Of a DNA stretch of 64,000 nt, positions 1 through 14,122 are shown piece by piece. The notes under the pieces are model-generated. The model was not told the origin of the DNA. It saw nothing but the letters and a program-made list of their open reading frames with translations, and did no database searches. Position 1 is the first letter of the stretch. Every line of letters starts with the position of its first letter. Origin of the DNA: Leisingera sp. ANG-M1 (lineage in GTDB: Bacteria > Pseudomonadota > Alphaproteobacteria > Rhodobacterales > Rhodobacteraceae); assembly GCF_000813745.1 (NCBI RefSeq), contig NZ_JWLC01000005.1, positions 1-64,000 of the forward strand, in the 5' to 3' direction. The position numbers were made by a program, and so were the translations under genes.

Positions 1-52
1 GGGAAATCCCAGGCCGAAAGCCGCGCGCCGCGCGGCAGGCCAAATAAAGCGT

Positions 53-129
<77 letters not shown>

Positions 130-642
130 AAACCTAACCACATGATTACAACGCCTTACACCCCCGCAGCCGCGGGGCTGACTGCGTTCGGAACAAGGAT
201 GCTGGAAGCACTACGGAAGCAAACGAGCGCAGCTCGAGCTGTGGCAAACACACCTGAGTGGTTCGGTTTGATTGTTAGTGCATCACTGGCCTCGGTTCCA
301 TTGGAACGATGGTTTCCAGTGCTGGTGGGCGGTAGCCTAATGCGCCAGGAGGAGGCGTAAGACAGCTATCAATGGCGCTAGCACCAAAGGGCAAGGAGAG
401 CGAGCGGGGCCCAAAGGGCGCCGGGTGCGGCTCCGCTGGCGTCCGCAGGCCGGATGCCGGGGCAGGGCAGTCCGCTTGCATGGATAAGAAAATCCCCGCG
501 GAGCGTGTTCTGTTTCCGCATTTGCCGTGAAACGCTGTCCCTTGCGGGGCCGAAACATGATACAATTACCTCGCAGGGGTTTTGCATGCTGGGATTGCAC
601 TGAAAAAGCTGAACCGCCTGGAAGGAAAGGGAGGACAGGCGC
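130..642. other. intergenic stretch without a supported gene
   Basis: About 510 bases lie between the tRNA and the acetyltransferase gene. The open frame at 142-360 (72 codons) has no ribosome binding site in front of its ATG and no recognisable motif. Longer frames on the minus strand have low-complexity composition typical of antisense GC-rich DNA. No terminator with a T-run and no clear repeat were seen. Confidence 0.5.
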
Positions 643-1293
643 ATGTCCGACTCTCCAGAGTGCCAGTTTGCGCTCAGGCCGCTCGAAAAACCGGATCTCG
701 CGGAGCTATCCTGCTGGTTCCAGGACGTGGCTGATCTTGCGTGCTTTGACCGTTCTGCGCGCACTCCGCTCGATTCCGCAGCAACTGCGCACGCCTGGGA
801 AGCTTCGGGGGATGCGGCGGGCGGAACCGGAAAGTGCTGGTTTTCGATTGTGGCGGACACTGGCGCGCTTGCAGGAATTGCCGGGCTGGAAGGCATCTCA
901 GCGGTAAACCGCGACGCAGTGATTGCGCTGTTCATCGCAAAGGAAAGGCGCCGGCAGGGGATCGGTATCCGCGCCATGGCTCTGCTGCTGGATTTTGCGT
1001 TCCGTCAGCTTGGGCTGAACCGTGTCACATCATATTACCGCGAAGACAACTTGCGCACCCGGGATATGACAGCGCGCCTTGGCTTTGAAACCGAAGGCAG
1101 GCTGCGCCGGGCCTGGTATGCGGAAGGCTGTTTCTTCGACATGGTCGCGGTCGGGATCCTGCGCGCGGAATGGGACAGGCGCCGCCAGGAACTGTCGCAG
1201 AGCCTCAAGCCGGGGTTGACTGTCAGCTTCGGTGCCGCGGACGCTCAGGGCTGGGTTTGGCCGCCGCGCCAGCCAGAAGGCGCAACAGGCTGA
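643..1293 (+). CDS. GNAT-family N-acetyltransferase
   Basis: A 216-residue protein with a GCN5-related acetyltransferase fold. The acetyl-CoA pyrophosphate loop is visible as ERRRQGIGIRAM at about residues 101-112, preceded by the strand VIALFIAKE. Downstream, GLNRVTSYYREDN and MTARLGFETEGRLRRAW match the RimJ/RimL-type acceptor region (pattern of N-terminal or small-molecule acetylases). The start ATG follows the strong site GGGAGG by 9 bases. It transfers an acetyl group from acetyl-CoA to an unknown amine in the cytoplasm. The last 30 residues are Pro/Trp-rich and outside the domain. It is followed after 63 bases by the cyclase gene, with its own ribosome site, so co-transcription is possible but not shown. 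Confidence 0.85.
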   Translation: MSDSPECQFALRPLEKPDLAELSCWFQDVADLACFDRSARTPLDSAATAHAWEASGDAAGGTGKCWFSIVADTGALAGIAGLEGISAVNRDAVIALFIAKERRRQGIGIRAMALLLDFAFRQLGLNRVTSYYREDNLRTRDMTARLGFETEGRLRRAWYAEGCFFDMVAVGILRAEWDRRRQELSQSLKPGLTVSFGAADAQGWVWPPRQPEGATG

Positions 1294-1356
1294 GCGGGCC
1301 GCTGGGGGCGAGAGGCAGAGCAGATGAAGAAGGATTGACGCACGAGGGACATTTCA

Positions 1357-3126
1357 ATGGGCGATCATAGCGAAAACCCTTCGTTCAGGCGAAGGCTCGG
1401 TGCAGTGCTCTTTGCCGATGTGGTTGGCTATGCCCGGCTCATGGGTAACGACGAAGTCGACACTTACAGTGCTCTGAAGTCGCTGCTGATGCAGCTTGAG
1501 GCGGCCTGCGAAGCCCATGACGGTCAGGTCATCGCTGTGCGCGGAGACGGCGTTCTGGCCCTGTTTGAGACCGCAACCGATGCGGTTCAATTCGGCGTCG
1601 AGCTGCACCGGATTGCAGAGCAAAGCAACCAGGCGCGGCCCAGCAGCGAGAAAATCCGCTTCCGTGCCGGGGTGCATTTAGGGGAAATCCTGGAAGATGA
1701 CCGGGGTATCCATGGCGACAATGTCAACATTGCTGCCCGGTTGCAGGAAATCGCCGAACCCGGTCGCGTGTTTGTCAGCGCGGTTGTCTATGAGCAGATC
1801 CGCAACCGGCTGCGGTTCGGTTACGAGTTTCTGGGGCCATGCGCGCTCAAGAACATTGCCGAGCCGGTGCCGACTTATTGCGTCCGCAGCGAGGTTGCGG
1901 GGGTGACCATGGCGCCAAGCCGACGGCCGGATTTTCCAAAGCCGGAGCGGGTGCGGCCGGACATTCCCTCGGTTGCGGTTCTGCCGTTTGCCAGTCAGAG
2001 CGGGGACCCGTCCGACAGCTGGTTTGCCGACGGGCTGACGGATGACATCATCCTGAATCTCTCCAAGTTCAAGAACCTGTTTGTGATCGCCCGCAATTCC
2101 GCCTTTTTCTTCAAGACGCAATCCATGCCCCCGCAGGAGGCCGCGCAGGAACTCGGGGTGCGCTACATTGCGCGCGGCAGTGTCCGCAGGGCGGAGTCGC
2201 GGGTGCGGGTCGCGGTCGAGCTGATTGATGCGGACAGCGGCAGGACGATCTGGGGAGAACGCTATGACCGCAATATCGACGACATTTTTGCGATCCAGGA
2301 CGAAGTCACAGACGCCATTGTTGCTGCAACCGCGGTTCTGATTGAAACCCAGGAACGCAAACGGATGGCCCAAAGAGCGCCCTCCGACCTGGCAGCCTAC
2401 GGCTATGTGCTGCGCGGCCAGCAGTTTATCTTCAGATATACCCGTCAGGACAATCAGGAAGCGCATGGGCTTTACGAACGGGCGCTTGCCTGCGACCAGG
2501 ACTATGCACGGGCCTCGGCGGCGATCTCGCGCACGATGAACATCAATTGGCGCTACTCCTGGGCAAAGGACAGCGAGCATGCGCTGGATACCGCTTTGGG
2601 GTTTGCCCAGCGGGCTGTTGACCTGGATCCGACAGATGCCCGCGGCTTTGGCGAGCTAGGTTTCGTGCATCTTTACCGCAAGGAGCATGATGCCTCTATC
2701 GGCGCCTACAGGCGTGCGCTGGCACTCAACCCGAATGATGCAGACCTGCGATCGGATTTTGCGGATGCGATGGCGCACTCCGGCGACAATGAGGCGGCCA
2801 TCGAACATCTGCAGCAGGCCATGCGGCTGAACCCCTACTTCCCGGACCAGTACCTGTGGCATCTCGGCGGCGCCTACTACAATCTCAAAGAGTATGAGGC
2901 GGTGATCGAGACGCTGACAAAAATGAACAACCCGACCGAAGGGCAGCGCATGCTGGCGGCAAGCTATGCCCAGCTTGGCCAAATGGGCCAGGCGCAGGAA
3001 ATGACCCGCAAGCATCAGGAAGCCCACCCGAATTTCTCGCTGGAGCGTTGGGCCAAGGTGCAGCCCGACCGTTTGGAAGAGGACACGCAGCACTTTGTCG
3101 AAGGGCTGAAGAAGGCCGGTTTTTAG
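1357..3126 (+). CDS. class III adenylate/guanylate cyclase with TolB-like and TPR domains
   Basis: A 589-residue cytoplasmic protein in three parts. Residues 12-170 form a class III cyclase homology domain: metal-binding Asp21 (LFADVVGY) and Asp64 (VRGDGVLALF) and transition-state Asn124 and Arg128 (NVNIAARLQ) are all present, so it should be catalytically competent. Residues about 203-310 (SVAVLPFASQSGDP onward) match the TolB/FlgO-like N-terminal domain. Residues about 340-580 contain several TPR-type helices (ALNPNDADLRSDFADAM, AMRLNPYFPDQYLWHLGG). This architecture is common in alphaproteobacteria, where multiple such cyclases are thought to answer separate stimuli through the TPR part. 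The start is set by GAGGGA nine bases upstream. Substrate (ATP or GTP) cannot be decided by eye. Confidence 0.92.
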   Translation: MGDHSENPSFRRRLGAVLFADVVGYARLMGNDEVDTYSALKSLLMQLEAACEAHDGQVIAVRGDGVLALFETATDAVQFGVELHRIAEQSNQARPSSEKIRFRAGVHLGEILEDDRGIHGDNVNIAARLQEIAEPGRVFVSAVVYEQIRNRLRFGYEFLGPCALKNIAEPVPTYCVRSEVAGVTMAPSRRPDFPKPERVRPDIPSVAVLPFASQSGDPSDSWFADGLTDDIILNLSKFKNLFVIARNSAFFFKTQSMPPQEAAQELGVRYIARGSVRRAESRVRVAVELIDADSGRTIWGERYDRNIDDIFAIQDEVTDAIVAATAVLIETQERKRMAQRAPSDLAAYGYVLRGQQFIFRYTRQDNQEAHGLYERALACDQDYARASAAISRTMNINWRYSWAKDSEHALDTALGFAQRAVDLDPTDARGFGELGFVHLYRKEHDASIGAYRRALALNPNDADLRSDFADAMAHSGDNEAAIEHLQQAMRLNPYFPDQYLWHLGGAYYNLKEYEAVIETLTKMNNPTEGQRMLAASYAQLGQMGQAQEMTRKHQEAHPNFSLERWAKVQPDRLEEDTQHFVEGLKKAGF

Positions 3127-3277
3127 GGGCGGGGCTTCGGCAGCCAGGCGTTTGCCGTACCGTAGCAAGCTGCAGGCAAAGCATTGGCCGTTTCAACCGC
3201 AGATTCTGGCGCCGGAAATTTCCTGTATCCAAAGCCGCATGGGCTCGGTGCGGGGCAAAGGATGCAACGCACCGGCA

Positions 3278-4138
3278 CTAGTCCAGAAACAGGCCGAAAT
3301 GATCCTGAGCTTCCGAAAGTTTCCTGACGCGCTGGCGTGCAGTATCACCCAGCCGGCCGCTGACGTCTTGCAGCAGCAGGTTGAGCCCTGTTGAAATCCC
3401 TTGCGGCATCGCAAGGAAGAAATGCGTTTCAGCCGGATAGCGCAGCACATATGGCGTTATGCCCGCGGCCCAGTCGCAGAATTCATCCGCGAGAATAATC
3501 ACTTCGATGCCGCGCTCGCGGGCAAGCCTGGCAAGGACCGGGCCATGCGCCCCGTAGCGGAACACGTCCATCATGATCAGCGTGACCTTCTCCTTCGGTT
3601 CTGGCAGAAGGCCCGCATAGACACCATCGATGCCGTCCACGATATGCACCCTGTCCCGCAGGTAGGAGAGGCGGCGGCAGAACCCGTCGGCCAGATAGTA
3701 CATAGTCTGAAAACCGGTCACATGGACGGCATCCGATTGTGCGACCAGCCCGACGATATCCTGCCACAAAGCGCTCTCGCGAAAGGAAAACGCTGCGGCT
3801 ACCGAGGCCTGGCTCAGCTCCAGGTCCGATTGCCATTGTTCAGACTGGCTGCGCGTGAAGCTGGTCTCGAACCTCCGGTCCACACGGTAGTTGTCCGGGC
3901 CATAGGTGTCCTGGACAACCTGATTGCGGGCATCAGCGGAATCCTCGAACCCAAGCTTCCTGAAAAACCGGGTCAGCGTCATCGGGCTGAGGTCCAGCTT
4001 GCGGGCAATCTCGGAGTTGGTTTCCACGACCACCGCTTCCGGGCGTGCCAGGAAATAGGCGGCGATACGCTTTTCCATAAGCGTGAAGCCGCTTTCAGCC
4101 TGCGCTATCGCATTGGCGAGCAAATCCCGCTGTTGCAC
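3278..4138 (-). CDS. RpiR/MurR-family transcriptional regulator (HTH + SIS)
   Basis: A 286-residue regulator. The N-terminal 75 residues carry the RpiR helix-turn-helix (TLMEKRIAAYFLARPEAVV, then NSEIARKLDLSPMTLTRFFR). Residues about 115-250 form the SIS phosphosugar-binding domain (VHVTGFQTMYYLADGF, VTLIMMDVFRYG). An upstream in-frame ATG exists, but the GTG chosen here is preceded by AGGAAAGGAG at ideal spacing. It is divergent from the TRAP transporter-dipeptidase operon with 267 bases between starts and is probably its local regulator. RpiR relatives such as MurR sense sugar phosphates from cell-wall recycling, which fits the dipeptidase downstream; the actual ligand is inferred, not seen. 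Confidence 0.9.
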   Translation of the reverse strand: MQQRDLLANAIAQAESGFTLMEKRIAAYFLARPEAVVVETNSEIARKLDLSPMTLTRFFRKLGFEDSADARNQVVQDTYGPDNYRVDRRFETSFTRSQSEQWQSDLELSQASVAAAFSFRESALWQDIVGLVAQSDAVHVTGFQTMYYLADGFCRRLSYLRDRVHIVDGIDGVYAGLLPEPKEKVTLIMMDVFRYGAHGPVLARLARERGIEVIILADEFCDWAAGITPYVLRYPAETHFFLAMPQGISTGLNLLLQDVSGRLGDTARQRVRKLSEAQDHFGLFLD

Positions 4139-4228
4139 CGTCCTAGCTCCTTTCCTGTTCACGGCTTTCTGCCTCAGCCACCTCATGTTTACGGCTTAAC
4201 CGTCTCTGCTGGCCATAGGTTTTGCCGT

Positions 4229-4275
4229 GTTAACATACTAACATATGCGTATCACATGTTCTATTGATAACATTT
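4229..4275. promoter_or_regulatory. candidate operator/promoter region between rpiR-type gene and TRAP operon
   Basis: This AT-rich stretch inside the divergent 267-base gap holds a direct repeat TAACATAC-TAACATAT followed by ATCACATGTT and GATAACATTT, much more AT-rich than its surroundings. Its place midway between the divergent starts makes it the likely operator for the RpiR-type regulator. No footprint-grade consensus can be claimed from sequence alone. Confidence 0.4.
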
Positions 4276-4405
4276 TTGGATTGCGCTAAGCAAAGCTCAT
4301 GGTGAGGATTCGCGGGTTTCCGCGGCCGAAACCTCAAGCGGCGGCGCGGTGGGACGGTTCATCTGCCTGGCGTTTGAAACCGTATCCAACAGGGAGGAAC
4401 CGAAC

Positions 4406-5416
4406 GTGAAACTGAGAATCCTGGCAGCTGCCGCCTTGCTCATGAGCACCGCAATCACCGCGCAGGCGGAAGCGGTCAAGCTGGGTTACAACGGGGCGCC
4501 TGACGCCAAGAAGAACGCCGTGCACTACTTCGCCGAAACGCTTGAGCGGATTGTCGAGGAGAAGTCCGGTATCGAGATCGAGCTTTACCCGAACTCGCAG
4601 CTTGGAAACGAGCAGGAGCGGATGGAGAATACCCTGGCGGCGCCGTCGCTGAATGTCGCAAGCTTTGCCGGGCTTTCGCCGGTTGTTCCGGAAAGCTTTG
4701 TTTCCAACACGCCCTTCATGTTCAGTACCGCAGAAGAAGCGCGGACGTTCTTTGACGAAGGCGCCTATTGGAAAATGGTTGAGCAGGCGTTCAGCGACCG
4801 CACCGGCGGCTCTGAAATCCTGGCAGTGGTGGAAGAAGGCGGCTTCCTGGCCTTCACCAGCACCGACCGGGCCATTCATTCGCCCGCCGATTTCGACGGC
4901 TTGAAGTTCCGAGCAATGGATCCGTCCCAAGTTGCCCTGTACGAGGCCATGGGCGCTTCGGGCACGCCCATCCCCTGGACCGAGGTCTACTCCGCGCTGC
5001 AGACCGGTGTGGTCGAAGGCCAGATGAACCCGCCGCTTTACATTATCCTCGGCTCGCTCAACGAAGTGCAGAAATACATGACACGGGCGAACGTGCAGTA
5101 TTCCATGCAGTTCCTAGTCGGCAACGGCGCCTGGCTGAACTCCCTGTCTGAGGCAGACCGCAAGGTGCTGGAAGAGGCCGTGGCAGAAGCCAATGCGATG
5201 ACCCGCGGCAAGGTTCAGGCGACGGTCGAAAGCCGGGTAGAATGGCTGGCGGAAAACGGCATGGAGGTCATCACGCCGACTGCCGCGCAACTGGCGGAAT
5301 TCCAGAAGATCGGCCAGCCGAGCTTTATTGAATGGCTGGGCACGCAAAGCATTGATCCAAGCTTCATCGAAGCCGCGTTCAATGATCTGGGCAAGTCCGA
5401 CCTGCTTCAGAAATGA
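4406..5416 (+). CDS. TRAP transporter substrate-binding protein (DctP family)
   Basis: A 336-residue periplasmic solute receptor. It begins at a GTG placed 8 bases after AGGGAGGA and starts with a signal peptide (KLRILAAAALLMSTAITAQA, cleavage near residue 21). The mature part shows the DctP pattern: substrate-binding Arg in LKFRAMDPS, followed by GTPIPWTEVYSALQTGVVEG. In the family this Arg usually pairs with a carboxylate on the ligand, so the substrate is expected to be an acid or a dipeptide carboxylate. It is the first gene of a four-gene operon with both permease subunits and a VanX-type dipeptidase. Confidence 0.93.
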   Translation: MKLRILAAAALLMSTAITAQAEAVKLGYNGAPDAKKNAVHYFAETLERIVEEKSGIEIELYPNSQLGNEQERMENTLAAPSLNVASFAGLSPVVPESFVSNTPFMFSTAEEARTFFDEGAYWKMVEQAFSDRTGGSEILAVVEEGGFLAFTSTDRAIHSPADFDGLKFRAMDPSQVALYEAMGASGTPIPWTEVYSALQTGVVEGQMNPPLYIILGSLNEVQKYMTRANVQYSMQFLVGNGAWLNSLSEADRKVLEEAVAEANAMTRGKVQATVESRVEWLAENGMEVITPTAAQLAEFQKIGQPSFIEWLGTQSIDPSFIEAAFNDLGKSDLLQK

Positions 5417-5898
5417 TCGAAACAGCACAGCGCTGGCTGGCACGCCTTACCCTGGGTGTGTCGGCCCTTCTTATCGCTTGGGTCGCCTTGTTTATCCTGT
5501 ACGGCGTCGGCGCGCGGTACTTCTTTGGATCGTCTCCGATCTGGTTTGATGAACTGGCGCGCTATGTGATCATTGGCGCCGCCATGATCGGCCTCGGCGC
5601 CGTCTGGGTTGAGGGCGCGCACATGCGGGTATCGGTGCTGGAAACGCGGGTTCCGCCGCGGGTCCGGTCGGCCATCATCCTGTATCAATGGCTGCTGACG
5701 CTGGCGCTTGCCGGTGCCATGGCCTGGTTCTCCTGGACATACGCCGGCCAGGTCGGCTTCTTCAAAACCCCGGGCCTGCAGATCTCGCGCACGCTGCCCG
5801 TGATGCTCTTGCCGGCAGGGTTTGGCCTGCTGTTTCTCATGGTGCTGCTGAACGGCCCCAAGGCTCTGCGCCAGCCTGCAGTGGAGAGTGACGAATGA
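5413..5898 (+). CDS. TRAP transporter small permease (DctQ family)
   Basis: A 161-residue inner-membrane protein with four predicted membrane helices (first helix around LTLGVSALLIAWVALFILYG; last around LPAGFGLLFLMVLL). The family signature W-F-D-E-L-A-R-Y is present as PIWFDELARYVIIGAAMI. Its ATG overlaps the stop of the binding-protein gene in an ATGA, and its own stop overlaps the large permease gene in the same way, so the three subunits are translationally coupled. Confidence 0.93.
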   Translation: MIETAQRWLARLTLGVSALLIAWVALFILYGVGARYFFGSSPIWFDELARYVIIGAAMIGLGAVWVEGAHMRVSVLETRVPPRVRSAIILYQWLLTLALAGAMAWFSWTYAGQVGFFKTPGLQISRTLPVMLLPAGFGLLFLMVLLNGPKALRQPAVESDE

Positions 5899-7172
5899 TT
5901 GCTGCAATGCTTTTTGTCATGCTGGTCAACGTGCTGATCGGCGTGCCGCTGTTCCTGAGCCTGATGGCGACGGCAGTGGTTGGCTTTGCCTTTGTCGGCA
6001 TGGACCAGATGGCGCGGATCATGCCGCAGCAGGCCTTTGGCGGCATTGATGTCTTCTCGCTGATGGCGATCCCGCTGTTCATTCTGGCGGGCAACCTGAT
6101 GAACAACGGCCAGATGACGCCGCGGCTGCTGCAGCTGGCCGACCGGCTGGTCGGGCACCTGCGCGGCGGTCTGGGGCATGTAAATGTGACCGCAAGCGTA
6201 TTCTTTGCCGGGATCAACGGATCTGCGGTGGCCGATACGTCTGCGCTTGGCACTTTGCTGGTTCCGGGCATGCGCAAGGCCGGCTTTCCCGGCACTTATG
6301 CCGCCGGGCTGACCGCGGCCAGTTCGCTGATCGGGCCCATCGTGCCGCCCTCCATCTTCATGATCCTGTTTGCCAGCCAGACCGGCACCTCTGTCGGCAG
6401 CCTGTTCCTAGGCGGCATTCTGCCCGGCCTGTCGCTCGGCGTGGCCTTCATGGCGATGAACGTCGTCTATTCGCGGCTCTACAACGTCGAAAAGAACCAC
6501 CGCCGCGCCAAGCTGCGCGAGATTGCCAGCGCGGCCTATGCGGCCCTTCCGGCCCTGATTGCCCCGGTGATCATCGTGGCAGGGATTGTCCTGGGGGTCG
6601 TGACACCGACTGAGTCCGGTGCCCTGACCGTGGCTTATGTGCTGGTCTGGGGGCTGTGGTCAAAGAACCTGAGCTTTCATGGCGCCTGGCTGTCGCTGAA
6701 GGAAACCGCGACGCTGACCTCGGCTGTCTTTGTCATCATCGCGATCTCTTCGGTCCTGTCCTGGCAGCTTGCCTATGCAAAAGCACCGGAAGCCTTTGTC
6801 AGCCTGCTGGAGCCTTTCGCGAACAGCCCTGCGCTGACCCTGATTGCGATATCCGGCATCACCTTCATTACCGGGATGTTCATGGAGGAAGTCTCAGCCC
6901 TGATGCTTCTGACGCCGATCGTGCTGCCGGTTGCACAGGTGGCGGGGGTGGATCCGGTCCACCTGGGCATCGTGGTCACGCTCAACATCACCATCGCGCT
7001 GATTACACCGCCGATGGGGGCCTGCATCTTTGTTGCAGCGGCGGTGGGCAAGGTCGACATCGCGCGTCTGTTTGTTGCCATCTGGCCTTTCATCGCAGTG
7101 GCTCTCGGGGTGCTTCTGATCGTGATCCTGGTGCCCGGACTGACCGTGTGGCTGCCGCGGCAGCTGATCTGA
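5895..7172 (+). CDS. TRAP transporter large permease (DctM family)
   Basis: A 425-residue protein with about twelve membrane helices and the expected DctM length. Family hallmarks seen include AIPLFILAGNLMNNG, GINGSAVADTSALGTLLVPGM and the re-entrant-loop proline-rich segments LIGPIVPPSIFMI and ALITPPMGACIF. It forms the sodium-driven channel with the DctQ subunit. The stop is followed after one base by the ATG of the dipeptidase, which argues strongly that import and peptide hydrolysis are one functional unit. Confidence 0.95.
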   Translation: MIAAMLFVMLVNVLIGVPLFLSLMATAVVGFAFVGMDQMARIMPQQAFGGIDVFSLMAIPLFILAGNLMNNGQMTPRLLQLADRLVGHLRGGLGHVNVTASVFFAGINGSAVADTSALGTLLVPGMRKAGFPGTYAAGLTAASSLIGPIVPPSIFMILFASQTGTSVGSLFLGGILPGLSLGVAFMAMNVVYSRLYNVEKNHRRAKLREIASAAYAALPALIAPVIIVAGIVLGVVTPTESGALTVAYVLVWGLWSKNLSFHGAWLSLKETATLTSAVFVIIAISSVLSWQLAYAKAPEAFVSLLEPFANSPALTLIAISGITFITGMFMEEVSALMLLTPIVLPVAQVAGVDPVHLGIVVTLNITIALITPPMGACIFVAAAVGKVDIARLFVAIWPFIAVALGVLLIVILVPGLTVWLPRQLI

Positions 7173-7173
7173 C

Positions 7174-7851
7174 ATGCCCCTTCAGCCTCAATCAGCCCTG
7201 AACTGGGACGCCGCCCAGACCATTTCCGCTGGAACAAGCCGCGAGCCGCTTGTTCCAGCATCCCCCAGTCCGCATTGGATTACCTGGCCTGTCTACTTCC
7301 ACAACGGCGTCCAGGCGGCGCTGCCCGAGATCTGGGTCCGCGAAGCGGTCTATGACCGGCTGATCACGGCGGCGCAGAGCCTGCCGCCGCAGTACCGCTT
7401 GGTGGTGCTGGACGGGTGGCGGCCGAAGACCGTGCAAAACAGCCTGTTCGAAGGGATGCGCTGCAAGCTGGCTTTGCAGCATCCGGAGCTTCCGGGCTGC
7501 GAGCTTGACCAAAGGGCGCTGCTGTATGCGGCACGGGCCAGCGACGACCCCGCACGCCCCAGTCCGCATATTACCGGCGGCGCCGTCGATGTGGCGCTGG
7601 CCGATGCGGACGGCCGGTTTCTGAATATGGGCAGCACCTTCGACGAAGCCAGCGAAAGAAGCTGGACCGCGGCGCCAGTGGCCGAAGGCCACGAAGCGCG
7701 CCGGAGATGTCTGCTGGATGCCATGCTGCAGGCGGGCTTCACCAACCTGCCAAGCGAATGGTGGCATTTCGACTACGGCAATTGGGTGTGGGCCTGGTAC
7801 CGGAACAAGGCGTCTGCAATTTACGGTCCAGCGGAAATTCCTGCGATTTAA
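7174..7851 (+). CDS. D-alanyl-D-alanine dipeptidase, VanX/DdpX type (peptidase M15D)
   Basis: A 225-residue zinc dipeptidase. The M15D zinc motif SxHxxGxAxD is at residues 130-139 (Ser130, His132, Asp139), the second motif ExxH at 195-198 (catalytic Glu195, zinc ligand His198), and the transition-state Arg is Arg83 in DGWRP. These match VanX His116, Asp123, Glu181, His184 and Arg71. No signal peptide is present, so it acts in the cytoplasm on imported D-Ala-D-Ala or a similar dipeptide. It sits one base after the TRAP permease gene. There is no vancomycin-resistance ligase nearby, so a nutritional role like that of E. coli DdpX is more likely than antibiotic resistance. Confidence 0.92.
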   Translation: MPLQPQSALNWDAAQTISAGTSREPLVPASPSPHWITWPVYFHNGVQAALPEIWVREAVYDRLITAAQSLPPQYRLVVLDGWRPKTVQNSLFEGMRCKLALQHPELPGCELDQRALLYAARASDDPARPSPHITGGAVDVALADADGRFLNMGSTFDEASERSWTAAPVAEGHEARRRCLLDAMLQAGFTNLPSEWWHFDYGNWVWAWYRNKASAIYGPAEIPAI

Positions 7852-7920
7852 TCTGCGCAGGTGCCAGGCTACTGCACGCTCTGGCTGCCTGGCACTCTGC
7901 TGCCGCGTATCGCCGACGAA

Positions 7921-7948
7921 AAACGCCCGGGCATCGGCCCGGGCGTTT
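7921..7948. terminator. Rho-independent terminator, probably bidirectional
   Basis: AAACGCCCGGG, a six-base loop and CCCGGGCGTTT form an 11-bp perfect stem with A and T tails on both sides, so it can end both the dipeptidase operon and the converging icd gene. Confidence 0.85.
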
Positions 7949-7971
7949 GGTGCATGTCACATCCGGCTGGC

Positions 7972-10185
7972 TCAGCCGATGATCGCGTTCAGCGTTGCCG
8001 AGGGGCGCATCACCTTGGCCTTCAGCTCAACGCTCGGGCGGTAATAGCCGCCGATATCGGCTGCCGGGCCCTGCGCTGCGGCAAGTTCACCCAGGATCTG
8101 CTCTTCCTTGGTGCCCAGCTCTTCGGCGATGGGAGCAAAGAAGGCGGCCAGCTCGGCGTCATCCCCCTGAGCAGCCAGGGCTTCGGCCCAGTAGCGGGCA
8201 AACCAGTAGTGGCTGTCGCGGTTGTCCGGCTGGCCGACCTTGCGCGAGGGCGAGCGGTTGTGGTCGAGGATGCCTTGCGTTGCGTCCTCGGCTGCCGCGC
8301 CCAGCACGCCCGCTTTGGCGTTGCCTTTGCTGTCGGCCAGGAATTTCAGGCTTTCCCCCAGCGCGCAGAACTCACCCATGGAGTCCCAGCGCAGGTGGTT
8401 TTCTTCAACCAGCTGCTGCACGTGTTTGGGAGCCGAACCGCCAGCGCCGGTTTCAAACAGACCGCCGCCATTCATCAGCTTCACGATCGACAGCATCTTG
8501 GCCGAGGTGCCCAGCTCCAGAATCGGGAACAGGTCGGTCAGATAGTCACGCAGCACGTTGCCGGTGATGGCGATGCTGTCGTTGCCAGCGGTGATGGTCT
8601 TCAGCGATTGCGCCGTGGCTTCGCGCGGGGCAAGCGTCACGAACTTGTCCGCCACACCGGCAGCTTCCAGCGCGGGCTGCACGTATTTGATCAGCTCGGC
8701 ATCATGGGCGCGGTTTGCGTCCAGCCAGAAGATCGCCTCGGAGCCGGTCAGGCGCTGTCGGTCCATCGCCAGCTGGATCCAGTTCTCGATCGGGGCTTTT
8801 TTCACGGTGCAGGAACGCCAGATGTCGCCTGCTTCCACTTCGTGGGAATGCAGGGTCTCGCCGTTTGCCAGAACCACACGGATGGTGCCGTCTGCCGGTG
8901 CCTCGAAGGTGGTCGGGTGCGAACCGTATTCCTCAGCCTTCTGCGCCATCAGGCCGACGTTGGCGACCGCGCCTGCGGTGGTCACATCCAGCGCGCCGTT
9001 GGCTTTGAAGAAGTTGATGGTCTCGTCATAAACCGAGGCATAGCAGCGGTCGGGGATCACGCAGTTGGTATCGCCCTTCTGGCCTGCCGCGTCCCAGCCC
9101 TTGCCGCCGGCGCGGATCACCGCGGGCATGGAGGCGTCGATAATCACATCGGACGGCACGTGCAGGTTGGTGAGGCCCTTGTCGCTGTCGACCATATACA
9201 TGGCCGGACGCTCGGCGGTGACGGCCTCGATAGCGGCCATGATGTCGGCGTTGCCTGCAACGCGGTCCAGCAGGTCGCCCATGCCGGAGTTCGGGTTCAC
9301 ACCCAGAGCGTCCAGCTCGGCGCCGAACTTGTCGAACACCGGCGCCAGCCAGGCCTTCACGGCGTGGCCAAAGATGATCGGGTCGGAGACCTTCATCATG
9401 GTGGCCTTCATGTGCAGCGAGAACATGGTGCCGTCGGATTTGGTGTCCTCAATAGCGCCGGCCAGGAAGGTGGCCAGAGCCTTGGCGGACATGAAGGTGG
9501 CATCCGCAACGGTGCCTTCTTCCAGCGGCCAGGCGTCTTTCAGAACGGTGACGGCGCCGTCCTTGGCAACGAATTCGATCTTCGCGTCACCAGCCTGGGC
9601 GGCGGTGATGGTCGCGGATTTTTCGTTGGCATAGAAATCGTTGCCGGGCATCGACGAGACTTTGGTCTTGCTGTCCGCAGCCCATGCGCCCATCGAATGC
9701 GGGTTGGCTTTGGCATAGTTCTTCACGGCTTTTGCCGCGCGGCGGTCGGAGTTGCCTTCGCGCAGAACCGGGTTCACCGCCGAGCCCTTGATGGCGTCGT
9801 AACGGGCGCGCACTGCCTTTTCGGCATCATTGGCAGGTTCTTCCGGGTAGTTCGGAATGTCGTAGCCCTGGCCCTGCAGCTCGGTGATCGCGGCGACCAG
9901 CTGCGGCACCGAGGCGGAGATGTTGGGCAGCTTGATGACGTTTGCGTCCGGGGTTTTCACCAGCTGGCCCAGCTCGGCCAGGTCGTCGTTCTGGCGCTGA
10001 TCCTCAGACAGATTCTCCGGGAAGGCGGCGATGATGCGGCCCGCCAGCGAAATATCCTTGGTGCCGACCGAAACGCCGGCGGCCGAAGCGAACTTGCGGA
10101 TGATCGGCAGGAAGGAGGCCGATGCCAGCTCGGGCGCTTCGTCTACAATGGTATACAATATGTCCGGGTTTTTGTTTTCTGCCAT
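7972..10185 (-). CDS. icd: NADP-dependent isocitrate dehydrogenase, monomeric type
   Basis: A 737-residue enzyme matching the monomeric (about 740-residue) isocitrate dehydrogenase family along its full length ([20 protein letters not shown] at the start; substrate region around [35 protein letters not shown]). It converts isocitrate to 2-oxoglutarate with production of NADPH in the citric acid cycle. An in-frame ATG three codons upstream is possible, but AAAGG lies nine bases before the ATG chosen. It is monocistronic, closed by the 7921-7948 terminator and preceded by a 289-base gap. Confidence 0.96.
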
Positions 10186-10395
10186 GTTCCACAACCTTTC
10201 AGCGATCTCGGAGGCGTTTATGACGTCGGCACAAGCGGAGCCCGCGCCGGAGGGTTATTCCAGTGATGTTCCGGTGCAATCAAACGTGTCCGGAACGGGC
10301 TTGGGAAGCCATTGGTATCGCCCCCATGTAGAACAGGATTGCTGCAGGTGCAATGGTGCGGTGCATATGACAGCCCGCGCGGATTGCCGCGGATG

Positions 10396-10474
10396 GCAGG
10401 GGAGGGGCGCTGCCCCTCTTGGCCTTTGGCCAATTCACCCCGGGATATTTTATGCAAGAGGAAAGAGCTGGGGG
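10396..10474 (+). repeat. dispersed palindromic element, family B (intergenic copy)
   Basis: The element contains a 7-bp stem hairpin GAGGGGC-GCT-GCCCCTC, then GGCCTTTGGCC, then CACCCCGGGATATTTT and GCAAGAGGAAAGAG. The same order of parts recurs inside xdhA (41748-41810) and, inverted, inside xdhB (39683-39737). Here it abuts the stop codon of the SH3-protein gene and may serve as its transcript end. Confidence 0.75.
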
Positions 10475-10972
10475 TTACTCGCGCAGCTCGTCCGGGGCGA
10501 CACCCCAGAGCTTTTTCTTCGGCGCCCAGCCGCTGTAGCCGCCGGCCGAGATTTCGCACCACTCGCTGCCGCACTCGCCGAGGCGGGCCACAACACCGAG
10601 CTCAAAGGCAGCGCTGACCGGCGCGCGGGCATCGGGGCGGGCGTGCACCGTCAGCATGTCCTCTTCCACCAGCACAGTGCGGACGCCTGACAGCAGCGCG
10701 TAATGCACCCAGCCGCCGGCGCCGTCGCGGTCCTGCACCCGGCGCCAGTGGCCGTACTCAGCCGTGATCTCCAGCGGCATGCCGCGGCGCTTGAACACCC
10801 AGTCGATCTTATGGGTGAGGGAGGGACCGCGGCGCACATTGCCCTTGGCGGCTTTCATCGAGACGTAACGAGGCAGGGGCAGGTTGGTGACAGGGCCGCG
10901 GGATTCGGCGGCGCAGACTGCTCCAGCCACCGCCAGGGATACCGCTGCCGCTGCCAGATGGCGCAGTGCCAT
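10475..10972 (-). CDS. exported SH3-domain protein
   Basis: A 165-residue protein with an N-terminal signal peptide (RHLAAAAVSLAVAGAVCA, cleavage near residue 22). The mature part contains a bacterial SH3-like domain of the type with the conserved RYVSMKAAKGNVRRGPS start, the GHWRRV core and GWVH turn, followed by a second SH3-like half (MLTVHARPDARAPV ... GYSGWAPK). Such periplasmic domains bind peptidoglycan or metals; the exact role is unknown. A GTG five codons upstream (position 10987) would add a VRKAA n-region and cannot be excluded. Two Cys in GECGSEWCE could form a disulfide. Confidence 0.85.
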   Translation of the reverse strand: MALRHLAAAAVSLAVAGAVCAAESRGPVTNLPLPRYVSMKAAKGNVRRGPSLTHKIDWVFKRRGMPLEITAEYGHWRRVQDRDGAGGWVHYALLSGVRTVLVEEDMLTVHARPDARAPVSAAFELGVVARLGECGSEWCEISAGGYSGWAPKKKLWGVAPDELRE

Positions 10973-11185
10973 TGCCGCTTTTCTCACTGCCTGCTCGCCT
11001 CTTCGTTGCCCAGCCGGGTTGTGCCCAGCCTCTTTTCCGGTCTTGCGCCCGTGTTTTGCCCCCTGGCGTTCCGGCAAAACTCCGGTTGCGGCCAAGGGAA
11101 TGCGCGCGGGTTCTTGTGCCTGCCCGCGTCCTGCGCCACGATGCCACGGAGAGGCGGCATTTGAAAAGCCCGAGGGAGAGCGCAA

Positions 11186-12172
11186 ATGGCAAGAGAACGC
11201 TTGAGTGTTGTTGTTACGCGACGGTTGCCGGAGCCGGTGGAAACGCGGCTGAGCGAGCTGTTCGACGTGCGGCTGCGCGAGGATGACACGCCGATGACCA
11301 AGGCGGAGCTGATCGAGGCGGTGAAACAGGCCGATGTGCTGGTGCCGACTGTCACCGACAGCATCGATGCGGGGCTTTTGGGCCAGGCGGGCGAGCAGCT
11401 GCGGCTGATTGCCAACTACGGCGCCGGGGTGGATCACATCGACGTGGCCACAGCGCGGCAGCGGGGCATTCTGGTGTCCAACACGCCCGGCGTTTTGACC
11501 GATGACACCGCCGATATGGCGATGGCGCTGATCATGGCGGTGGTGCGCCGGATGCCCGAAGGCCTGGCGGTGATGCAGAAAGGCGACTGGCAGGGCTGGG
11601 CGCCGACCGCGCTCTTGGGCGGCCGGATTGCCGGGCGGCGCCTCGGCATCCTCGGCATGGGCCGGATCGGCCAGGCGGTGGCCAAACGCGCCGCGGCCTT
11701 TGGCATGCAGGTGCATTACCACAACCGCCGCCGGTTGCGTGCCGAGACAGAAGCGGCGCTGGAGGCCACCTATTGGGAGAGCCTCGACCAGATGGTGGCG
11801 CGGATGGATGTGATCTCGGTGAACTGCCCGTCGACGCCTTCGACCTTCCATCTGCTGAACGCGCGGCGGCTGAAGCTGATGAAACCCTCGGCAGTGGTGG
11901 TGAACACTTCGCGCGGCGAGGTGATCGACGAGCACGCGCTGACCCGGATGCTGCGCGCAGGCGAGATCGCAGGCGCCGGGCTGGACGTCTATGAGCATGG
12001 CACAGACATCAACCCGCGCCTGCGCGAGCTGCCCAATGTGGTGCTGCTGCCGCATATGGGGTCGGCGACGCTGGAAGGGCGGATAGAGATGGGCGAGAAG
12101 GTGCTGCTCAACATCAAGACCTTTGAGGACGGCCACCGCCCGCCCGATCAGGTGGTTCCGTCGATGCTGTAG
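11186..12172 (+). CDS. D-isomer-specific 2-hydroxyacid dehydrogenase (glyoxylate/hydroxypyruvate reductase-like)
   Basis: A 328-residue NAD(P)-dependent oxidoreductase. The Rossmann motif is GILGMGRIGQAVAKR; the catalytic Arg243 lies in TSRGEVID and the catalytic His290 in LLPHMGSAT, with the acidic partner Glu in between, so the full triad is present. It likely interconverts a 2-keto acid and a D-2-hydroxy acid such as glyoxylate/glycolate. The start is supported by GAGGGAGAG nine bases upstream. It is followed 41 bases later by ggt; both are on the plus strand with the D-lactate dehydrogenase-like gene, a loose three-gene group handling hydroxyacids and glutathione-type peptides. Confidence 0.93.
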   Translation: MARERLSVVVTRRLPEPVETRLSELFDVRLREDDTPMTKAELIEAVKQADVLVPTVTDSIDAGLLGQAGEQLRLIANYGAGVDHIDVATARQRGILVSNTPGVLTDDTADMAMALIMAVVRRMPEGLAVMQKGDWQGWAPTALLGGRIAGRRLGILGMGRIGQAVAKRAAAFGMQVHYHNRRRLRAETEAALEATYWESLDQMVARMDVISVNCPSTPSTFHLLNARRLKLMKPSAVVVNTSRGEVIDEHALTRMLRAGEIAGAGLDVYEHGTDINPRLRELPNVVLLPHMGSATLEGRIEMGEKVLLNIKTFEDGHRPPDQVVPSML

Positions 12173-12213
12173 GTGCCCGCAAGCCGGGCCGGAATTTGAG
12201 AGAGGGAATTTCC

Positions 12214-13989
12214 ATGAGACATCTGATTCTGGCCTGTTTTGCCGTTGCAGGCGCGGCCAATGCACAGGAAGCCGCAGATTCCGTGGCGCCGGAAGCTGCC
12301 ACTGCCGGCAGCTTCGAGGCGATCTCAGAGCAGGTTGCTGCCGCACTGGAGGCCAGAAACGCAGGCCAGCCGGTCGAGGCCGAAAATTGGATGGTTGCGG
12401 CGGCCAATCCGCACGCCGTTGAAGCTGGCGCCCAGGTGCTGCGCGCAGGCGGCACTGCCGCGGATGCGATGGTGGCAGTGCAGACCGTGCTGGGGCTGGT
12501 AGAGCCGCAGTCCTCGGGGCTGGGCGGCGGTGCCTTTCTAGTCTGGTATGACGGGGCGACCGGCGAGCTGACCACACTGGACGGGCGCGAGACCGCGCCT
12601 CTGGCAGCCACCCCGACGCTTTTCCAGGATGAAAACGGCGAGCCCTTGCAGTTCTTTGACGCAGTGGTCGGCGGCCGTTCGGTGGGGACGCCGGGCACGC
12701 CTGCGCTGCTGGAGGCCGCACACCGGAGCTGGGGCCGTGCCAATTGGCCGTCGCTGTTCGAACCGGCGATTGCCTTGGCCGAGGGCGGCTTTGCCGTGTC
12801 GCCGCGTCTTGCCGGGCTGGTGCAGCGTGACGCCGAACGGCTGGCGCGCTTTCCAGCCACGGCGGAATACTTCCTTCCCAATGGCGAGCCGATCGAAGCA
12901 GGGGGCGTCCTGCTCAATCCGGACTACGCGGCCACATTGCGTGCTTTAGCCGAGGGCGGAGCGGGGGCGTTCTATTCCGGTCCCATCGCAGCAGAGATCA
13001 TCCGGACAGTTTCAACTGCCGAAGGCAACCCCGGCGTGCTGTCGGCCACTGACTTGGCGCTGTACCAGGTCAAAGAGCGCCCGGCGGTCTGTGCCGCTTA
13101 CCGCGATTTTGAGGCTTGCGGCATGGGGCCGCCGTCCTCTGGTGCCCTGACGGTGGGGCAAATCCTGGGAATGCTGGGGAGTTTTGACCTCGCTGAAATG
13201 GGCGCCGAGAGCGCCGAGGCCTGGCGGCTGATCGGCGATGCCTCGCGCCTCGCCTTTGCCGACCGCGGGCGCTACATGGCCGACAGTGATTTTGTTCCGG
13301 TGCCCACGCATGGGCTGGTGGCGGCGGATTATCTGGCCAGCCGTGCCGAACTGCTGCAGGGCGATGATGCGCTGCCCGAGGTGGCGCCGGGATCGCCCGA
13401 GTTTGACCATGCGCTTTGGGCCGATGATGAATCGATTGAGCTGCCCTCGACCTCCCATATCTCGATCGTGGATCAGTACGGCAACGTCCTGTCGATGACC
13501 ACGACTATCGAGAACGCCTTTGGCTCGCGGCTGATGGCGGGCGGCTTCCTACTGAATAACGAGCTCACCGATTTTTCCTTCCGCACCCATGTGAACGGCG
13601 TGCCGATTGCCAACCGGCTGGAGCCGGGCAAGCGGCCGCGCTCCTCAATGGCGCCCACGATTGTGCTGCGGGACGGCAAGCCGGTACTGGCCATCGGCTC
13701 GCCTGGCGGCAGCCGGATCATCGGCTATGTGGCAAAATCCATTGTCGCTTGGGCCGATTGGGGGCTGAACATCCAGGAGGCGCTGGCGCTGCCGCATCTC
13801 GTCAACCGCTTCGGCACCTATGACCTGGAAGCGGGCACCAGCGCCGAAGGCTTTGAAGAGGCGCTCTCTGGCATGGGGTTCGAGGTGAACATCCGCGATC
13901 TCAACTCCGGGCTGCACGCGATTGAGATTGGCGATGTGCTGAAAGGCGCCGCTGACCCGCGGCGTGAGGGGATAGCGCTAGGCGGTTAA
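12214..13989 (+). CDS. ggt: gamma-glutamyltransferase (glutathione hydrolase)
   Basis: A 591-residue secreted Ntn hydrolase precursor. The signal peptide is RHLILACFAVAGAANAQ. The protein self-cleaves before a Thr that becomes the nucleophile; the matching site is Thr413 in STSHISIVD, followed by GNVLSMTTTIENAFGSRL. The gamma-glutamate-binding Arg lies in TLDGRETAP near residue 125, and the lid/glycine pair appears as RPRSSMAPTIV and GSPGGSRI. It removes gamma-glutamyl groups from glutathione and related peptides in the periplasm. The ATG chosen follows GAGAGAGGGA, rather than an ATG six codons upstream. Confidence 0.95.
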   Translation: MRHLILACFAVAGAANAQEAADSVAPEAATAGSFEAISEQVAAALEARNAGQPVEAENWMVAAANPHAVEAGAQVLRAGGTAADAMVAVQTVLGLVEPQSSGLGGGAFLVWYDGATGELTTLDGRETAPLAATPTLFQDENGEPLQFFDAVVGGRSVGTPGTPALLEAAHRSWGRANWPSLFEPAIALAEGGFAVSPRLAGLVQRDAERLARFPATAEYFLPNGEPIEAGGVLLNPDYAATLRALAEGGAGAFYSGPIAAEIIRTVSTAEGNPGVLSATDLALYQVKERPAVCAAYRDFEACGMGPPSSGALTVGQILGMLGSFDLAEMGAESAEAWRLIGDASRLAFADRGRYMADSDFVPVPTHGLVAADYLASRAELLQGDDALPEVAPGSPEFDHALWADDESIELPSTSHISIVDQYGNVLSMTTTIENAFGSRLMAGGFLLNNELTDFSFRTHVNGVPIANRLEPGKRPRSSMAPTIVLRDGKPVLAIGSPGGSRIIGYVAKSIVAWADWGLNIQEALALPHLVNRFGTYDLEAGTSAEGFEEALSGMGFEVNIRDLNSGLHAIEIGDVLKGAADPRREGIALGG

Positions 13990-14122
13990 AGCTTCCGCCC
14001 GGCTGCCCTGCGTGCTCTGGTGCAGGCCTACCCGCTTGTGGGTATTGCGGCGCGGCCTCTGCGGGGCGTAGGTTAACACGTAAACTTCCCCAACGGATGC
14101 CTGCCGCCCAAGGAGACCCGCC

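Follow-up and report, generated by a model that had tools for sequence, protein, structure and literature searches.

Analysis of the first 64,000 nucleotides of contig NZ_JWLC01000005.1 from Leisingera sp. ANG-M1 (assembly GCF_000813745.1; hereafter the window) revealed at positions 3278-7851 an operon that combines a tripartite ATP-independent periplasmic (TRAP) transporter with an M15D zinc D,D-dipeptidase, in the order solute-binding protein (SBP), DctQ, DctM and M15D, divergent from the gene of an RpiR-type regulator. From sequence comparison we consider it highly probable that this is a D-Ala-D-Ala scavenging operon, in which import by the TRAP system would be followed by cleavage of the dipeptide in the cytoplasm. 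The five genes, located by open reading frames and Pfam at the positions proposed in an initial annotation of this DNA, are the following:

3278..4138, minus strand: RpiR-type regulator with an HTH_6 domain; the open reading frame reaches ATG 4186, GTG 4138 being the more probable start
4406..5416, plus strand: TRAP SBP of the DctP family, probable D-Ala-D-Ala receptor (P0001; DctP, E = 2.7e-66); probable start GTG 4406
5413..5898, plus strand: TRAP small permease DctQ (P0004; PF04290, E = 7.9e-23)
5895..7172, plus strand: TRAP large permease DctM (P0005; PF06808, E = 9e-100)
7174..7851, plus strand: M15D zinc D,D-dipeptidase, VanX/DdpX-like (P0002; PF01427, Peptidase_M15, E = 2e-21, above the Pfam cut-off)

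DctP, DctQ and DctM each score above the Pfam cut-off and are adjacent, and thus constitute a complete TRAP set (DctPQM), a family of sodium-coupled carboxylate importers. The SBP and DctQ genes overlap in an ATGA at 5413-5416 and the DctQ and DctM genes in another at 5895-5898, while the stop codon of DctM ends at 7172 and the ATG of the dipeptidase begins at 7174; the overlaps and the one-base gap (7173) noticed earlier are therefore present in the sequence.

The closest solved relatives of the SBP are the TRAP binding proteins Csal_0660 (PDB 4N8G, E = 3.6e-124) and Dde_1548 (4NGU, E = 1.4e-107), the next structure reaching only 5.6e-31. The mature protein is 60% identical to 4N8G and 56% identical to 4NGU, and its AlphaFold2 model (mean predicted local distance difference test score, pLDDT, 89.2) superimposes on them with root-mean-square deviations of 1.2-1.7, indicating the same fold. 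Both crystals presumably contained bound D-Ala-D-Ala, with which Vetting and co-workers of the Enzyme Function Initiative are said to have deposited them in their 2015 work. D-Ala-D-Ala is very likely the ligand of the window SBP as well, judging from these similarities. A 2018 review (PMC5812351) names 'cell-wall constituents' among the new TRAP ligands of Vetting et al. 2015, in agreement with such a ligand; by this account, the initial view that TRAP systems are rarely linked to peptides was overstated. Among the titles and abstracts listed in literature searches, none joined a TRAP system with D-Ala-D-Ala, although several of the searches returned papers containing the terms apart. The proposed ligand is largely anticipated, its class having reportedly been published, or deposited in the PDB, for proteins closely related to the SBP, and the novelty of the present analysis is modest, consisting of the regulator difference, the limits of a gene cassette and a predicted operator, all described below.

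The M15D protein retains every zinc and catalytic residue named in the initial annotation, namely Arg83, His132, Asp139, Glu195 and His198, and these are invariant in 27/27 aligned M15D proteins (27 of the 77 available, the window protein included). Counted on the alignment, VanX residues R71, S114, H116, D123 and D142 correspond to R83, S130, H132, D139 and D157 of the window protein, and E181 and H184, placed by the EWWH motif, to E195 and H198; all seven are invariant among the 27 and match positions that have a role in VanX. The best fold match to the M15D model (mean pLDDT 90.8) is VanX (PDB 1R44; template modeling scores 0.63/0.69), and at E 0.01 no other protein of solved structure is related to it in sequence. 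No signal-like N-terminus was seen by eye in the window M15D, and import ahead of cleavage would therefore be the natural reading.

The pairing of the TRAP genes with M15D is not a chance association. One genome per species was scanned with an alignment of the SBP and its two solved relatives as the seed, and 295 pattern matches yielded 211 stretches encoding an SBP relative; the best 80 were retained for inspection. This survey, of the kind suggested in the initial annotation, found the pair kept together, with SBP, DctQ, DctM and M15D in the same order on one strand at 76/80 loci, including the four from Chromohalobacter, the genus of 4N8G (L050, L060, L072 and L093). Two of the remaining four loci (L071 and L073) stop at a contig end, one is damaged (L057) and one is without M15D (L068). 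The damaged set, in Halomonas ventosae 1_TX (about 6980-9543), has lost most of DctQ and the middle of M15D, of which only two end pieces persist. In the Leisingera genome itself, 20 DctP matches stand against a single M15 match, and the latter is at this locus. Among 61 relatives, the four genomes with a close SBP (E <=1e-50) are the same four that have a close M15D, and when the family was sampled evenly with 248 genomes, SBP and M15D were each found, at strict limits, in the same two. As a control, the 12-16 kb around the more distant M15 genes of the 61 relatives contained no match to SBP, DctQ or DctM in 10/10 cases (E 1e-3). Pairwise distances of SBP and M15D are correlated with r = 0.912 (76 loci), 0.902 (65 non-alphaproteobacterial loci) and 0.794 (11 alphaproteobacterial loci), a correlation that partly reflects shared descent and was matched by 0/2000 permutations in each of the three sets. 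No gene family other than a regulator is kept beside the operon, which suggests that no enzyme is required beyond the peptidase.

Gene content and order, the active-site residues, the kinship with 4N8G and 4NGU, the kept linkage and a repeated operator-like site are seen in the sequence itself, while the ligand, the direction of transport, the reaction, the fate of its product and the whole of the regulation are inferred. We propose that wall turnover supplies D-Ala-D-Ala, or another D,D-dipeptide very close to it, which the DctP protein would bind in the periplasm, that DctQ/DctM would import the dipeptide, presumably with sodium, that the M15D zinc dipeptidase would cleave it to two molecules of D-Ala once inside the cytoplasm, and that the D-Ala would enter catabolism or be re-used in the wall. 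The RpiR-type regulator probably acts on a tandem TGTT-N8-AACA site and may answer the dipeptide or D-Ala. The core of this proposal, TRAP import of D-Ala-D-Ala coupled to a cytoplasmic D,D-dipeptidase, goes back to the initial annotation and is supported by the gene order, by the kinship with two proteins reported to hold D-Ala-D-Ala, and by an active site in which no VanX-type residue is missing.

Several points weigh against it. The ligand assignment draws on what is reported of the contents of the two crystals, and part of the SBP-M15D distance correlation is owed to common ancestry. The window M15D scores far below the equivalog cut-offs of both DdpX (NF007557, 72.1 vs 176 bits, with 334.7 for E. 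coli DdpX) and VanX (NF033115, 38 vs 320 bits), and its substrate could therefore differ. None of the 70 DadA matches in the genome exceeds the cut-off (best 197.2 vs 383 bits), so that the proposed use of D-Ala is conjectural. The transporter at locus L068, from a Halomonas metagenome-assembled genome, comprises SBP, DctQ and DctM with no M15D found, followed by open reading frames that by eye resemble molybdate transport genes. The operator site is absent from L024, where the regulator is present, and a sigma-70 scan of 3200-8000 gave 0 matches against a shuffle mean of 1.0.

The scores below the curated DdpX and VanX cut-offs would be accommodated if the operon served another small D-amino-acid dipeptide or a related acid, the specificity of M15D having shifted along with that of the SBP, as would the single branch that separates the TRAP-linked M15D proteins from nine others, DdpX included (SH-like approximate likelihood ratio test, SH-aLRT, 86, in a quick tree whose very long outside branches make the split tentative). 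We regard this as unlikely, however, since the full VanX-type active site is kept and the SBP shares 56-60% identity with proteins reported to carry D-Ala-D-Ala, although these come from other bacteria and would show the ligand only under crystal conditions. That the TRAP genes serve the uptake of an ordinary organic acid, as in many such systems, beside an M15D with a job of its own such as wall remodeling or VanX-like protection, is very improbable, for although L068 carries the transporter genes and no peptidase gene was found with them, the order is kept at 76/80 loci with short junctions, the 10/10 other M15 genes of the relatives are without TRAP neighbors, and the cassette is limited to these five genes.

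A D-Ala-D-Ala scavenging operon of this kind would parallel ddpXABCDF of E. coli, where, in the MG1655 annotation, a D,D-dipeptidase gene likewise stands in a row with a dipeptide importer. In contrast, the importer is of the ABC type in ddp and of the TRAP type in the window, and the window M15D, 32% identical to E. coli DdpX over 127 residues, falls under the DdpX equivalog cut-off. VanX is the best fold match and shares the active-site residues, yet it is only 25% identical and its model gives 38 of the 320 bits required, and the window M15D sits in a transport operon. Csal_0660 and Dde_1548 resemble the window SBP in both fold and sequence, whereas none of the Chromohalobacter loci of the scan has an RpiR-type gene like that of the window, and where a regulator was found upstream it is of the LysR type. 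If the proposal were confirmed, the E. coli Ddp strategy would be run here on a different transporter class, and the TRAP-M15D gene pair would be a marker of bacteria feeding on a peptidoglycan fragment; the pair is common in marine and halophilic Proteobacteria, the scan having given 211 stretches with an SBP relative, 80 of them inspected.

The regulator (P0003) matches HTH_6 (rpiR) in Pfam with E = 1.8e-07 and 31.5 bits against a cut-off of 28.3. Several relatives start at the same MQQ/VQQ position as GTG 4138, a GGAG lies upstream, and the start is probably this codon rather than ATG 4186. The initial annotation had described an SIS-domain, RpiR/MurR-like regulator, of which the RpiR type stands by HTH_6. 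Pfam detects no SIS domain at E up to 10 in the window regulator and five homologues (6/6), while the control, E. coli MurR, gives SIS at 1.1e-21; a profile comparison with MurR, on the other hand, produces a weak long alignment that enters the SIS region (probability 94.7, E = 5.9e-08), and a diverged SIS fold is possible. A particular likeness to MurR was not borne out: MurR shares HTH_6 and the weak long profile match, but differs in its Pfam SIS match and gives a BLASTP E of 0.25, and close kinship was rejected, only the helix-turn-helix part being firm by Pfam, BLASTP and profile comparison. Wall sugars, to which the initial annotation had noted that MurR responds, found no support as the effector of the window regulator. 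The best NCBIfam model for the protein, SapR, is far under its cut-off (85.8 vs 500 bits).

The regulator type is lineage-specific, being RpiR in alphaproteobacterial loci and LysR in most others. An RpiR-type homologue is present at 10/80 loci, all within an alphaproteobacterial clade of 11 loci, which both trees set apart by a branch with SH-aLRT 100. At 54/69 other loci, the immediate upstream neighbor, in the same orientation, is a gene labeled LysR-type, by Pfam for one protein and by similarity to that protein for the rest. Neither type was found by these criteria at 16/80 loci, of which at least two, L069 and L083, are counted here because they fall two bases short of the limit. Two loci, L021 (JAHVJD010000004.1) and L101, bear the record title Nocardioides marinus DP1N28-1, but their genome is placed in the genus of the window and their genes fall inside the alphaproteobacterial clade, which suggests a mistaken title or a mixture in the record.

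Counts of a TGTT-N8-AACA pattern against shuffled sequences point to a candidate operator between the divergent genes:

4228-4243 and 4257-4272, no strand assigned: candidate tandem operator, two TGTT-N8-AACA sites

These are the only two exact sites in the window, where 0.31 would be expected and 4/100 shuffles reach two. With a spacer of 8 or 9, the pattern occurs as 14 sites in 10/12 alphaproteobacterial intergenic regions between regulator and SBP, whereas 500 shuffles averaged 0.2 sites and never exceeded 2; the test is a generous one in that the pattern was derived from the same regions, some of them near-copies. Besides L024, the site is absent from L028, which has no regulator. A -35 element TTGATA overlaps the last operator site in 5/12 regions, with no good -10 element, and is at best suggestive. 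A wider regulon was considered and rejected, the tandem pattern (<=2 mismatches) occurring at one place in the genome, as did a backwards control pattern.

In the alphaproteobacteria, the five genes are a discrete cassette of ~4.6 kb. Comparison by BLASTN of window positions 1-14000 with five alphaproteobacterial loci, one of which (L100, a contig of 5.5 kb) includes little flanking sequence, gave matches confined to 3275-7837, the flanks being unrelated. Within the genus, 4/21 genomes have the cassette, while its neighbors are core, the isocitrate dehydrogenase gene on the right being present in 21/21 and the cyclase-TPR gene on the left in 20/21. In a cassette-free relative (G005), the left flank stops at 3122 and the right flank resumes at 7969, on different contigs. 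With unrelated flanks and core neighbors around a cassette found in 4/21 genomes, the five genes seem to be transferred together. More speculatively, and in our estimate doubtful as a whole, the alphaproteobacterial form would be a self-contained D-Ala-D-Ala cassette that spreads horizontally, its RpiR-type regulator, with a diverged SIS region, sensing D-Ala-D-Ala or D-Ala directly through the tandem operator. The RpiR family is known mainly for sugar phosphates; such a regulator, if real, would represent a peptide- or amino-acid-sensing branch of it, and confirmation of the scavenging function would in itself make a non-sugar effector worth considering. A plasmid search returned one SBP relative, on a 1.8-Mb Halomonas record with no listed genes.

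One further feature was seen by eye downstream of the operon:

7921..7948, no strand assigned: perfect 12-bp inverted repeat with a 4-base loop, a possible two-way terminator

A terminator scan that needs a T run does not report this repeat, which lies where the dipeptidase gene and the isocitrate dehydrogenase gene converge. The latter, at window positions 7972-10194, encodes a monomeric isocitrate dehydrogenase. On the other side, at 1357-3126, Pfam identifies an adenylate/guanylate cyclase domain followed by tetratricopeptide (TPR) repeats.

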